A stretch of DNA of 64,000 nucleotides, taken from the NCBI GenBank assembly GCA_026014745.1, contig JAOZHS010000002.1, forward strand, positions 310,001 to 374,000, written 5' to 3'. The position numbers and the translations under genes were made by a program. Each line of letters opens with the position of its first letter. Position 1 is the stretch's first letter. Positions 2,207 through 62,027 of this stretch are shown one piece after another. The DNA comes from Candidatus Bathyarchaeota archaeon. Lineage in GTDB: Archaea; Thermoproteota; Bathyarchaeia; Bathyarchaeales; Bathycorpusculaceae. The notes under the pieces were generated by a model, which searched no databases, was not told the DNA's origin, and was given only the letters and a program-made list of their open reading frames with translations.

Positions 2207-2284
2207 CAAGTCTTATTTTTGCACTTATAGAATGCGTGTCCGTTTGCAGTTGCTGTTCACTGCTTTCCGATGCTTTCAACGAAC

Positions 2285-2390
2285 CTATTTGCAGCCTATT
2301 TGGATCCTATTAGTGGTTCTATGTAGAAACCTAAGAGGGGTAGGTCACTATTGACCCAAAACAAGCCCATTAACATGTTGAAAACCAGTA
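2285..2390 (+). repeat. Dispersed intergenic repeat, copy A
   Basis: This 106-base unit recurs at 61420-61525 with about eight mismatches by eye and, in inverse orientation and more diverged, at 6245-6328. It begins with CCTATTTG-type units spaced 11 bases apart and contains a conserved hairpin ACCTA-loop-TAGGT. It lies between two convergent genes (reductase and MFS exporter). It may be a small RNA gene, a processing or termination element, or a relic of a mobile element; the sequence alone does not decide. Confidence 0.8.
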
Positions 2391-2427
2391 GAAATCCCCG
2401 CTTCAAAAAGTTGGGGGAGGGTGCGGT

Positions 2428-6244: not shown

Positions 6245-6328
6245 ATGCGCTAAAAAGCCAATACCGACCTACCCCTCTATAGGTTCTGCATAGAGTTTCT
6301 AATAGCATCCAAATAGGCTACAAATAGG
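6245..6328 (-). repeat. Dispersed intergenic repeat, copy C (inverted, diverged)
   Basis: Read on the minus strand this segment aligns with the repeats at 2285 and 61420: CCTATTTG units 11 bases apart, then the hairpin ACCTA-loop-TAGGT with the flanking GGTCGGTATTGG, and a GCGCAT near the end. The loop differs in length (eight instead of seven bases) while both stem arms are kept. It lies between convergent genes. Confidence 0.7.
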
Positions 6329-17059: not shown

Positions 17060-18643
17060 TTAGACCCTTAGCAGAGTCATCAACTTCTCAACCAAAACGA
17101 GCAGCCTACAGAAAAACCTGCCAATAGCCCCCAAACCTTCAACCATACCCCTCAAATTAGCCAAATCCGAACGGGTAATTGAGCGAGTAAGCAACATAGC
17201 AACAAGCACCACCAAAACAAAGAAGGGGACGCCTACAACGAGGAGAAGCCAACTCGCCAAAGGCAAAGCAGCAACAACAAGATACGTTAAAACGCCAGCC
17301 ACGGCTGAAGAAAGCAGGATTTTAGCTGAAGAAACCCAATCCACAACTACGCCATAAGTTTTTTTGATAAACCCTAAACCGATAAAGATGCCAGGTAGAA
17401 CAGCAGTCAACGTTGAAAAGATAAGGCCATACACGCCGAAATTCATAATCAAAAGATAACCCATCGGGAAACCTATCAGCCCAGTTAATAGGCCCAGCTT
17501 CATCATGTAGGTTGTTTGGCCCTGACCATTCAGAAACCCTGTTAAACTAAGATACCCAAAGGCGGTATAGAAATATTGAATCGCTAATAGCGCCAAAAAA
17601 AGCGGAGCCAAAGTATAGGTGGCGCCGAAAAGTGTTTCAACACCCGGCGTAGCCAAACACATCACTAAGGCAGTGACTGGAACCACAACAAAAGCGGCAT
17701 ATTTAACAGAGAACTGAAAAACGTTCCTAAGAACAATCTTATCTTTCTCTGCGTCGAGTTTCGAGAAGGCAGGAAACATCATCGTCGTAACGGGAATTGC
17801 GAAAAAAGTGATTAACACAACAAAATTCATTGCGATACTATAGTTGCCTATAGTTACGTTTTCTGTGGTGTAGTAGATGGGGAGCAGAAAGGCGTAGAAT
17901 TGTGGAAGCAGCAGTGTAACAATTGTTGCAAGCGATAGGGGTAAACAATACTTCAGCAGGGTAGTCAAGTATGCCGTTATTTGCAGCTTATTTGAGGGTG
18001 GTTTGGGTAGCTTTCGATAGATAACCAAAACAAGACCGACCCCGATTATGCTGGCAATAAAATTACCCGCTAAAAAGCCAACAGAGGCTCCAGCCGTTCC
18101 CAGACCTAAAGCAACAAGGGCTATGATAAGCGCAGTTTTTGAGATGCTTTGACCAATAATCATGATGCTGTTGAGTTCCATTTTCTCAACCCCAGTAAAA
18201 GCCGCCGTAGCAGCATTCACCAAGCCGTTGGCGAAGATAGAAAAAGACACAATTTGTATAAGCGAAGCAATCTCGGGACGATTAAACACGCTTGCAGCCA
18301 AAAAATCAGCCAAGAAAAAGGATACAACCGAAAGAACAAGGCCTATTATCATTTCAAAGATTATGCCCGTAATATAGATGCTGCGGATTTCATCAAGCCT
18401 GCTCTCGGCACGGTACTGCGCGGTAAATCGAACCATGGCAGAGGTTATGCCCCAATCACGGAAAACCTGAATAAACGTCGGAACCGTCAAAACGACAGCG
18501 TACAATCCATAGAGGTCTGAGCCGAGGAGACGTGCAATGAAAATCGTTCCTACTGACAGAATTAGCGTTGAAATTACTAATCCCCAAAGCAGGTGAAAAC
18601 TTCCTGCAGTTGAAACCTTGGCAATATCAACAGCTTTACTCAT
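17060..18643 (-). CDS. Polysaccharide/oligosaccharide flippase (MOP superfamily), copy 1
   Basis: The 527-residue protein has about 14 membrane helices and the start LLWGLVISTLILSVGTIFIA typical of Wzx-like flippases. These move lipid-linked glycans across the membrane. It is clearly paralogous to the protein at 21845-23434, with the same start MSKAVDIAK and nearly the same length. A short C-terminal stretch (YLVVAALPLASWLLLVVGVP) is identical, matching a near-identical DNA block. The two copies flank two nucleotide-sugar dehydrogenase genes. Confidence 0.85.
   Translation of the reverse strand: MSKAVDIAKVSTAGSFHLLWGLVISTLILSVGTIFIARLLGSDLYGLYAVVLTVPTFIQVFRDWGITSAMVRFTAQYRAESRLDEIRSIYITGIIFEMIIGLVLSVVSFFLADFLAASVFNRPEIASLIQIVSFSIFANGLVNAATAAFTGVEKMELNSIMIIGQSISKTALIIALVALGLGTAGASVGFLAGNFIASIIGVGLVLVIYRKLPKPPSNKLQITAYLTTLLKYCLPLSLATIVTLLLPQFYAFLLPIYYTTENVTIGNYSIAMNFVVLITFFAIPVTTMMFPAFSKLDAEKDKIVLRNVFQFSVKYAAFVVVPVTALVMCLATPGVETLFGATYTLAPLFLALLAIQYFYTAFGYLSLTGFLNGQGQTTYMMKLGLLTGLIGFPMGYLLIMNFGVYGLIFSTLTAVLPGIFIGLGFIKKTYGVVVDWVSSAKILLSSAVAGVLTYLVVAALPLASWLLLVVGVPFFVLVVLVAMLLTRSITRSDLANLRGMVEGLGAIGRFFCRLLVLVEKLMTLLRV
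17217..17290 (-). repeat. Near-identical DNA block shared with flippase copy 2
   Basis: About 74 bases match 22009-22082 with only two differences, while the rest of the two genes differs at many positions. This local identity suggests recent gene conversion between the paralogues. Confidence 0.7.
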
Positions 18644-21844: not shown

Positions 21845-23434
21845 TTAGCCCTGCTTACCCAAAAGTTTCATCAACTTTTCAAGAATTATTAGCAGCTTGT
21901 TAATAAAACGGCTAAAAGACCCCAAACCTTTAACCATAGACCTCAAAGCTACCACGTCGGATTGTGTAATTGACCGAGTAAATAACAACGCGGCAAGCAC
22001 AACCACAACAAAGAAGGGGACGCCTACAACGAGGAGAAGCCAACTTGCCAAAGGCAAAGCAGCAACAACAAGATACGTCAAAAGCCCAGCCACAGCCGAA
22101 GACAGAAGAATTTTAACTGAAGAAACCCAATCCAGGCCTATATTGTAGGTTTTTTTTATGAAACGTAAACCCATAAAGATGCTCGGAAGCCCAGCGGTTA
22201 AGGTTGTAATAATGAGACCTAAAACTCCATAATTCATTATCAAGAAGTAACCCACCGGGAAACCAATTGTGCCAGTCAATAAACTTAGTTTTAACACGTA
22301 ACTCGTTTTACCCTGGCCATTCAGAAAACCGCTTACACTTAAATTACCAAAAGCTGCATACAAGTACTGAATCGACATAAGTGTCAAAAAAAGAGGCGCC
22401 AAAACGTAAGTTTCACCAAAAAGCGTTTCGACACCTGGCCCAGCCAAACTCATAACTAGAAAGGTAACAGGAACCACAATAAGAGAGGCATATTTAACAG
22501 AGAACCTAAAGATGTTTCCTAGATCCACTTTATCTTTTTCTGCATCCAACTTAGAGAACGCAGGAAACATCATAGTGCTTATGGGCATGGTGAAGAAGCC
22601 GATGAGAACTACAAAATTAAGCGCTATGCCATAATTTCCGATGGGAACATTGTCAGTTACGTAATGTATGGGAAGCAGAAATGCATAGAACTGAGGAAGC
22701 AAAGTTGTGATAATAATACCAAAAGACAGGGGCAAACAGTAACTCAACATGGTAGTTAAGTATTCTTTTAGATGCAGTTGTTTCGACACTGGCTTCGGCA
22801 GGCTGCGATAGATAACGCTGACCAAGGAGATTCCGATTATGCTTGCAATAAAGAGGCCAACGGTGTAACCTATCGTGGCTCCAGCAGTACCCATACCAAA
22901 AGCCACCAGCACGATTATAATTGCTGTTTTAGCAATATTTTGACCAACAATCATTATACTGTTTAGCGCCATTCTTTCATAGCCTGTGAAAACAGCTGTA
23001 GCCGCCGTGACTAGGCCGCTGGCAAAAATGGAAAAAGAAGCGATTTGTATAAACGGAGCAAGCAGTGGCCGGTTAAATACAGTAATCGCTAAGAAATCAG
23101 CGGAGAAAAAGGATAAAACCGAAAGCAACAAACCTAGTATAACCTCAAATATTATTCCGGTAAGGAATATACTGCGGATTTCATCAAATCGACCTTCAGC
23201 TCGATACTGAGCGGTAAACCGGATCATAGCCGAGTTTATTCCCCAGTCACGAAAAACCTGCATAATTGTTGGAACAATTAAAACGATCGTATACAAACCG
23301 TAAAGATCTGAACCAAGAAGTCGAGCGATAAATATAGTGCCTATGGAGGAGATAAGGGTTGAAATTACCAAACCCCAAAGCAGATGAAAACTTCCAGTTG
23401 TTGAAGCTTTTGCGATGTCAACTGCTTTACTCAT
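21845..23434 (-). CDS. Polysaccharide/oligosaccharide flippase (MOP superfamily), copy 2
   Basis: The 529-residue protein is the paralogue of the flippase at 17060-18643, collinear along its length, with about 14 membrane helices. It likely exports a related but distinct lipid-linked glycan, or one copy may be redundant. The C-terminal extension KLLIILEKLMKLLGKQG is basic. It is convergent with the UDP-sugar dehydrogenase gene, which could supply one of its glycan's sugars. Confidence 0.85.
   Translation of the reverse strand: MSKAVDIAKASTTGSFHLLWGLVISTLISSIGTIFIARLLGSDLYGLYTIVLIVPTIMQVFRDWGINSAMIRFTAQYRAEGRFDEIRSIFLTGIIFEVILGLLLSVLSFFSADFLAITVFNRPLLAPFIQIASFSIFASGLVTAATAVFTGYERMALNSIMIVGQNIAKTAIIIVLVAFGMGTAGATIGYTVGLFIASIIGISLVSVIYRSLPKPVSKQLHLKEYLTTMLSYCLPLSFGIIITTLLPQFYAFLLPIHYVTDNVPIGNYGIALNFVVLIGFFTMPISTMMFPAFSKLDAEKDKVDLGNIFRFSVKYASLIVVPVTFLVMSLAGPGVETLFGETYVLAPLFLTLMSIQYLYAAFGNLSVSGFLNGQGKTSYVLKLSLLTGTIGFPVGYFLIMNYGVLGLIITTLTAGLPSIFMGLRFIKKTYNIGLDWVSSVKILLSSAVAGLLTYLVVAALPLASWLLLVVGVPFFVVVVLAALLFTRSITQSDVVALRSMVKGLGSFSRFINKLLIILEKLMKLLGKQG
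22009..22082 (-). repeat. Near-identical DNA block shared with flippase copy 1
   Basis: This is the partner of 17217-17290, with two differences in about 74 bases. It encodes the TLPLASWLLLVVGVP-like helix region near the C-terminus of the flippase. Confidence 0.7.
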
Positions 23435-60089: not shown

Positions 60090-61316
60090 TTAAAAGCCGT
60101 TTCCGCCTATTAGCGTTTGGTTCCAGAAGTAGAGCCGCCTATACTGCCCCGCAATGGGGAATTGTTGGTCATCGTAGATTATGTCGAAGTTGGAGCCGTA
60201 TTCTTTGAGGAGTTGTCGGGTGGTGTTCCAGATTTGTGCGGACACCTTGTCGGGTGGCCAGAGACCCCAAAGCGGGTCGTTGGGGTTTCGCATTCCCCAG
60301 CCGTAATTGTTAGGCATGACAAACGCGACGGTTGGCGGCGGCTTGACGGTTAGGTAGGGGATGTCGTTCCAGAATTGCTCCATTGCCGCTAGTTGGTCTT
60401 CGGTTAGGATTCCGTAGGGGTTGTCGTCAATTTGGGGGTAATCGAAGATGACTGCATATTTTGCGCCTGCCTCGTAGGCTTGGACGAGTTGGCTGTAGAG
60501 TTCGGTGCCGTTTACGAGGTAGGGGGGTTGGTTGTAGGTCCAGGTTATGATGGCGCCCCAGGTTTTGTTTTGCACTCGGGCAGCTCCCCGCGCCAGCGCG
60601 ATGGTTTGGTCGATGCTTTGGTTGGAGCCGAACTCGGCGAATATGGTGTCGTAGCCGCCTTTGTAGTCGAACCAGTACAGGGCGTAGTCGCTGGTGTAAG
60701 CGTGGATTTCGCGGCTTTTGAGTTCTTGGAGCCCCACCCCATTTTCTACGCTGTCTAAGAAGTGATATGCCGCCTGACTGTTATCCACAGGTGAAGACCC
60801 GTTTAGATGCAAATCAATCGCGTTGCCGCCGTCATGCGTGTAGTACCTCGACGTGTTGCGTATGCGGATTTGGTTGAAGTACCCCGTCCAATTGGTATCT
60901 ATGGTTTGCCCGCCGGGTTCATCATTGAGGTAAACGCCTAAGAAGCGGCTGCCCCAAGTGGCTTTGGCGTAGTCAAGCCATGGGATTTGCCAAGTAATGT
61001 TGGGGTTGAAGTACCCGAACGCTGCAATCACATACAAATCTGCGGCCACAGCGTAGTTGAGAACTTCGTTTAACGCGGTTTCGTTTATGCTAACGGGATA
61101 GGACTGCATGACAAAGAGATTAGTGAAGCCTTTAACTCGGTCAATGAGGACTTCGGCGTCTGATGTGGTGTTGCCGTTGAAGGAAACCCCGAAGAAAAAC
61201 TCTGGTTGCGCAGCACCGTTATTGTTCGAGGTAAGGTAGGGCCAGATAAGCAGAGCAGAAACCAAAGCAGCCGCTACAACCACAACAAAAATGGATAACA
61301 GAAGGGCGCTCCTCAA
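60090..61316 (-). CDS. Membrane-anchored TIM-barrel, glycosidase-like protein
   Basis: The 408-residue protein has an N-terminal anchor (LLLSIFVVVVAAALVSALLIW) and an outer domain that reads like a TIM barrel: FFFGVSFNG, RFLGVYLNDEPGGQ (candidate acid E133), HDGGNAI, AIITWTYNQPP and YAVIFDYPQID. Such layouts occur in glycoside-hydrolase-like surface proteins, but no defined family is recognised. It is near the exopolysaccharide genes, which suggests a glycan substrate; this is inference. Confidence 0.55.
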   Translation of the reverse strand: MRSALLLSIFVVVVAAALVSALLIWPYLTSNNNGAAQPEFFFGVSFNGNTTSDAEVLIDRVKGFTNLFVMQSYPVSINETALNEVLNYAVAADLYVIAAFGYFNPNITWQIPWLDYAKATWGSRFLGVYLNDEPGGQTIDTNWTGYFNQIRIRNTSRYYTHDGGNAIDLHLNGSSPVDNSQAAYHFLDSVENGVGLQELKSREIHAYTSDYALYWFDYKGGYDTIFAEFGSNQSIDQTIALARGAARVQNKTWGAIITWTYNQPPYLVNGTELYSQLVQAYEAGAKYAVIFDYPQIDDNPYGILTEDQLAAMEQFWNDIPYLTVKPPPTVAFVMPNNYGWGMRNPNDPLWGLWPPDKVSAQIWNTTRQLLKEYGSNFDIIYDDQQFPIAGQYRRLYFWNQTLIGGNGF

Positions 61317-61419
61317 AAGAATCGCCTCCGAAAATCAGCCACAAAAATCAAAAATACCATGCCCCCGCAACTAAAAATAGGTTCCCAATCTACGAGGCGC
61401 AACAAAGAACACCGTTTAG

Positions 61420-61525
61420 CTATTTGCAGCCTATTTGGATCCTATTAGTGGTTCTATGCAGAAACCTAAGGGGGGTAGGTCCGTATTGGCGCAAAACAAG
61501 CGCATTAGCATGTTGAAAACCAGTA
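61420..61525 (+). repeat. Dispersed intergenic repeat, copy B
   Basis: This 106-base unit differs from copy A at 2285-2390 at about eight positions by eye. It has the 11-base-spaced CCTATTTG units, the hairpin ACCTA-AGGGGGG-TAGGT, and the end GTTGAAAACCAGTA. It lies in the 258-base gap between two minus-strand genes, opposite to their direction, and about 59 kb away from copy A. Confidence 0.8.
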
Positions 61526-61574: not shown

Positions 61575-62027
61575 CTAATTGATTGGTTTTTTCCATCCGC
61601 CATTGCTAAAACGCGCAAGCACCCCAAAGGGAAAGGACAGCAGCACCAAGTCGATGACGGTTATGGAGGTGAATGATAAGTCGGTGGTTGTTTGCATCAC
61701 AAGATTCACCGAGGTAAACAGGAGCACCAAGAATATGCCGTTTAGCCAAAACCCAACCTGCCATCCGCGGGTTTTATAGAGCAACTGGATGAGGACGATA
61801 TTGAGGACGCCTATGATTAGCGGTTGAATGAGGTAGGTGATTATGGCGAGGAAGGCAAAGCCAAAGGGCGGCATGTAAGAAATGAGTTGAACTGTTTCGG
61901 AATTTATCCATACCTGAGCAATAACCAAAACCGCCACTACAAAAACCCCCTGAATCAAGAGCTTCTCGATTAAATGCAGATGCCGTAGATGATTGAAGAA
62001 TCGGTTATCAGTTAGCGTTTTTTGCAA
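61575..62027 (-). CDS. Small four-helix membrane protein of unknown function
   Basis: The 150-residue protein has four membrane helices (residues about 25-43, 52-76, 88-106 and 119-134) and short loops. I recognise no family. Its TTG start overlaps the preceding glycosidase-like gene by 20 bases, so it is probably translationally coupled and may work with it. Confidence 0.6.
   Translation of the reverse strand: MQKTLTDNRFFNHLRHLHLIEKLLIQGVFVVAVLVIAQVWINSETVQLISYMPPFGFAFLAIITYLIQPLIIGVLNIVLIQLLYKTRGWQVGFWLNGIFLVLLFTSVNLVMQTTTDLSFTSITVIDLVLLSFPFGVLARFSNGGWKKPIN

Follow-up and report, generated by a model that had tools for sequence, protein, structure and literature searches.

The window analyzed, a stretch of 64,000 nucleotides, comes from contig C2 of a Candidatus Bathyarchaeota genome (G000; 2.7 Mb, 97.5% complete). 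Two paralogous genes for polysaccharide biosynthesis (flippase-like), 72-79% identical in aligned 300-nt stretches, are found in a region also hosting sugar-nucleotide and glycosyltransferase genes. An ORF of 1392 aa had no Pfam match at E 1e-5. Three copies of a short repeat are interspersed with the genes (Table 1), all in gaps outside long ORFs. Copies 1 and 3 are each located between convergent genes, and copy 2 (61420) separates two ORFs transcribed in the same direction. Identity between copies 1 and 2 is 92% along 106 nt, and copy 3 is 82% identical to either of them over 72-76 nt. A 30-nt pattern, CCTATTTGNNNCCTATTTGGATNCTATTAG, is matched three times in the window and was never found in 100 shuffles. 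The three related intergenic copies noticed in a sequence-only reading of this DNA are thus real, and so are the near identity of two of them and the inversion and divergence of the third; the 106 bp then taken as the unit are not the basic unit. CTAT/CTATT units are spaced 11-12 nt within the copies, in agreement with the 11-base spacing described in that reading. Rfam gives no match within the window, in line with the sequence-only reading, which had matched the repeat to no familiar family.

Table 1. Repeat copies, adjoining modules and other features of the window
Feature	Positions	Strand	Description
5' module at copy 1	2252-2283	+	GCTGTTCACTGCTTTCCGATGCTTTCAACGAA; common to a subset of G000 copies (alignment)
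Copy 1	2284-2390	+	extra 11-mer CCTATTTGCAG, core unit 2295-2344, tail TATTGACC...CATTAACATGTTGAAAACCAGT
3' module at copy 1	2391-2420	+	around ATCCCCGCTTCAAAAAGTTGGGGGAG; AT-rich centre, G-rich right arm
Copy 3	6245-6328	-	core unit 6268-6317, AAACTC variant, truncated tail
Flippase-like gene	17060-18643		paralogue of the next
Flippase-like gene	21845-23434		paralogue of the preceding
ORF, 1392 aa	28135-32313		
ORF	60090-61316	-	copy 2 lies upstream
Copy 2	61419-61525	+	core unit 61430-61479 plus tail
ORF	61575-62027	-	copy 2 lies downstream

The basic unit is a core of about 50 bp with a tandem period of 61-63 bp, to which optional modules are joined. The core fits the consensus CATATTTGGAnCCTAWTAGnnnnTCTATGCAGAAACCTATAGAGGGGTAGGTC. 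Its CTAnTA motif holds the only invariant positions across the 98 units compared, namely the T and A letters. Sites host 1 to 4 units arranged head-to-tail, and unit starts are mostly 58-66 bp apart (mode 61-63). The unit contains AT blocks; its TA steps recur about every 11 bp, roughly a turn of the helix, with peaks at positions 2, 13, 16, 25, 37-39 and 46, and the AA/TT/TA power over the units peaks at 10.5 bp (0.52 vs 0.24 in shuffled sequences). The core is followed by a tail module, TATTGGCG...GCCATTAGCATGTTGAAAA, and the 5' module shared by a subset of G000 copies ends with TTTCAACGAAC. As judged by eye, about 60 bp separate the G-runs of one module from those of the next. A TATA-like module found in relatives, TTWWATAGGGGGATAGGGTCTA, has 37 matches in G013, none in genomes devoid of core units and none in G000; the module at 2391-2420 is possibly the counterpart of this TATA-like/GGGGG module.

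Other modules were noted on the side. The sequence TTWWATAGGGGGATAGGGTCTAnnGCAGAGCAACAAA, with 37 matches in G013 (for example at loci L253 and L265) and 6 in G029, is often found 3' of core units and sometimes alone; its TATA-like part is mainly TTAAATA, TTATATA or TTTTATA. A further recurrent module, approximately CCTATAWATAGGGGGGCTATAGAAAAAAATYGCA, is located some 60 bp downstream in G013 (L265, L266, L263), and a similar one in L080 of G032. At G013 loci L065, L127 and L234 a different repeat, GGTCGTAGTAAA / TTTACTACGACCAT, adjoins several elements.

Genomes of the genus, most of them draft metagenome assemblies, were searched with a sequence-only model built from the 98 units, the E-values of which are rough. 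As 150 candidates were scored per genome, the largest counts may be lower bounds. The search detected 94 core units in G000, and the family is hosted by congeners as well: 134 units were counted in both G012 and G025, 111 in G024, 96 in G013, 83 in G022, 60 in G018, 57 in G029 and 29 in G008. Overall, nine genomes host 29-134 units and three host 2-7 (7 in G015, 5 in G010, 2 in G001); in the 20 other congeners the model found no core unit. G032, which belongs to another genus of the same family, has 15 DNA matches. An exact 24-nt probe searched in 84,980 species matched Candidatus Bathyarchaeota only, in 15 contigs. The repeats are a family of about 100 short, non-coding intergenic DNA elements, carried by some species of Bathyarchaeota. 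Nothing relevant was found in the literature on repeats of Bathyarchaeia. On a tree built from two genes, species rich in elements are intermingled with species lacking them, and at least six changes are needed to account for their distribution.

Two possible sources of the repeats were considered and discarded. A viral origin was dismissed since no viral contig in IMG/VR matches the one exact pattern searched. An autonomous parent was sought in the low-copy genomes G001, G010 and G015; the copies are mostly low-scoring, and no linked transposon was seen in the loci inspected. The sole strong copy of G033 (L121) is located at a contig end, near a TFB-like ORF, and may be a relic or misbinned.

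The genomic context was monitored with mechanical (longest-ORF) gene calls. Only 8 of 81 elements overlap a called ORF of at least 100 aa, and the confinement to gaps seen in the window therefore extends to the family. Convergent gaps account for 23/83 of the gaps with elements and for 23/149 of the other gaps at the same loci (p=0.04); the corresponding figures for divergent gaps are 14/83 and 48/149 (p=0.013). Gaps hosting elements have a median length of 384 bp, vs 232 bp for those lacking them. Elements and core units are randomly oriented relative to the neighbouring genes. The sequence-only reading had also envisaged a simple mobile-element relic, carrying terminal repeats or falling randomly inside genes. 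The low overlap with ORFs does not fit such a relic, nor does the lack of terminal inverted repeats in the three window copies and their flanks. The only palindrome is a 12-nt imperfect one, made by the overlapping sequences CTATTTGGATCC/GGATCCTATTAG in copies 1 and 2.

All three window copies feature the tracts ACCTA and TAGGT, earlier interpreted as the arms of a stem kept by selection. The stem is preserved in the window and not beyond it: over the 98 units it is paired in 62.9% of the cells. The ACCTA arm is often ACTAT or ACGAT while the TAGGT arm stays. Pairs changed on both sides number 4, vs 4.2 in shuffles. The percentage of paired cells and the count of doubly changed ones slightly exceed those of shuffles, as related sequences allow in the absence of structure. 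RNAalifold predicted 0 pairs on the 98 units, and single copies do not fold better than shuffles on either strand (z from -0.37 to 0.91). A second candidate, the tail stem TATTGRC/GYCATTA, was similarly rejected, as it shows no covariation (9.90 vs 10.00 +/- 0.18 with arms permuted among copies). Selection on an RNA hairpin is thus not supported, and of the two targets of selection proposed in the sequence-only reading, RNA structure and DNA binding, the latter is the more plausible. Since no RNA fold is found and orientation to genes is random, we conclude that any action of the repeat is exerted as DNA.

A set of 100 further loci of relatives was derived from the best-scoring matches, and positions were paired via the neighbouring proteins. 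Elements lie on the same strand at the matching gene end in 43 of 46 pairs; counted as independent positions, the agreement is 21 of 24 (p=0.0003 vs a chance of 50%). By a rough calculation from the sampled loci, most positions appear to be common to the sister species G012 and G024, and perhaps a fifth to G000 and these two. The gap between a phoU-like gene and pyrE is occupied, always on one strand, in G012, G024, G013, G000, G022, G029 and G008. The same gene pair is found with an empty gap in the element-free G005, G003, G006, G017, G016 and G021. The gap measures 153-452 bp with units, and mostly 52-167 bp without (421 bp in G021). Copy 2 of the window is matched behind the corresponding gene by elements of the same orientation in G012 and G024, and by none in G022. 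At the apgM site the element of G000 is absent from relatives, save for a G018 unit found further downstream of the same gene. Target duplications could not be read from empty sites, as congener flanks are too diverged and gaps align mainly in the genes. With positions common to species from different parts of the tree, the species pattern is more simply read as a series of losses; insertions that hit identical sites independently are a less simple alternative.

While positions are shared, sequences are not correspondingly alike. The identity of units at matching positions in G012 and G024 is 0.84, vs 0.82 for random cross-genome pairs. Within genomes it reaches 0.88 in G000 and G012, and is 0.81 in G013 and G024. 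Array structure also differs among species at one shared position. Repeats that hold position while their sequence changes are a useful test case for gene conversion in archaea.

The reading we prefer, to which we assign about an even chance, is that these lineage-specific, modular non-coding repeats are, or once were, dispersed protein-binding sites. Sites that hold their positions, evolve in concert (as seen in two genomes or more) and vanish as a set suggest a putative factor acting in trans. A protein encoded by the element-rich species would recognize one helical face of the unit, and would maintain the sites, in position and in similarity, through selection for binding, through copying or conversion of units between sites, or through both. 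Were this factor lost, all sites would decay together. The random orientation of elements relative to genes is as expected of DNA sites, and not of RNAs or promoters. Several data do not favour the binding-site reading. The analysis yielded no partner protein. None of histones, TFB number and Y1 transposase tracks the repeats, and TFB number was accordingly discarded as a correlate. Taken singly, consensus sequences are no more than marginally phased, within-genome homogenization was not observed in G013 and G024, and the fast internal change of arrays at one position is unexpected under strict site conservation. That some 100 strand-oriented sites, inherited in position, changing in concert and lost as a set, are read by a putative archaeal DNA-binding protein as a new chromosome-organizing or regulatory system is a bolder proposal, advanced tentatively.

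The main rival is a selfish element, similar to REP/BIMEs or MITEs and moved by a putative transposase, which would have spread in an ancestor, been reshaped by array expansion or conversion, and been deleted where the mobilizer was lost. We consider this a serious contender, if a distinctly less probable one. High copy number, G000 copies up to 95-97% alike over 100-130 nt, mosaic modules and variable unit number all fit this reading, and so do the depletion of elements in divergent, promoter-bearing gaps and the greater length of the gaps in which they reside. The lack of terminal inverted repeats speaks against it, and at many sites both position and strand seem to have been inherited, not newly acquired. 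Moreover, the Y1 transposase PF01797 is absent from G000 and from the element-rich G012, G013, G018 and G022, which led us to reject it as the mobilizer; it is present in several element-free congeners.

Bacterial REP/BIMEs associated with RAYTs likewise comprise some 100 short copies between the genes of a genome, form mosaic arrays and are patchy by species; in contrast, the unit described here is non-palindromic, its arrays are head-to-tail rather than alternating, and G000 has no Y1 transposase. MITEs and enterobacterial repeats of the RU/ERIC type are likewise small, non-coding, intergenic and present in many copies, but differ for the terminal inverted repeats, missing here, and because many positions here are common to several species. 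CRISPR arrays, too, are made of direct repeats that recur roughly every 60 bp. Unlike these, the present family consists of 1-4 diverging units at many dispersed sites, with short related linkers and no unique spacers.

Both the binding-site and the selfish models predict a co-occurring protein. If a factor acting in trans maintains the sites, the contrast of presence and absence within the genus lets a comparison of gene content find it. This would reveal either a new site-specific archaeal DNA-binding system or a repeat spreading without a known REP transposase.

That the repeats are sequences preferred for histone positioning seems improbable. In this reading, the spacing of the TA steps by about one turn and the 61-63 bp period would match the roughly 60 bp that an archaeal histone tetramer wraps. 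The period and the 10.5-bp AA/TT/TA peak resemble the archaeal nucleosome-positioning sequence; footprints of about 60 bp with 10-bp AA/AT/TA/TT phasing are known in other archaea (PMC3691661). Unlike such sequences, the repeat is highly sequence-specific, and conserved tracts such as TGCAGAAAC are more specific than wrapping requires. When consensus sequences are taken one by one, their helical phasing is marginal or absent (p=0.03 for G000, 0.27 for G012). Histone genes are found in 32 of 32 genomes, with or without repeats, and their presence was discarded as a correlate.

About as improbable are arrays of promoters or transcription starts, a reading prompted by modules in which the TATA-like TTWWATA precedes GGGGG. 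The TTWWATAGGGGGATAGGGTCTA module is abundant in G013 and matched only in element-bearing species, as this reading would have it, but G000 has no match, the next downstream gene is often oppositely oriented, and core units have no orientation preference. Least probable of all is the structured small RNA, or 3'-UTR RNA element, suggested by the sequence-only reading, given the lack of a consensus fold, of convincing covariation and of an Rfam match in the window, z values near 0 and random orientation to genes, even if stems that look good by eye are found in some copies, such as TATTGAC...GTCGATA in L063.
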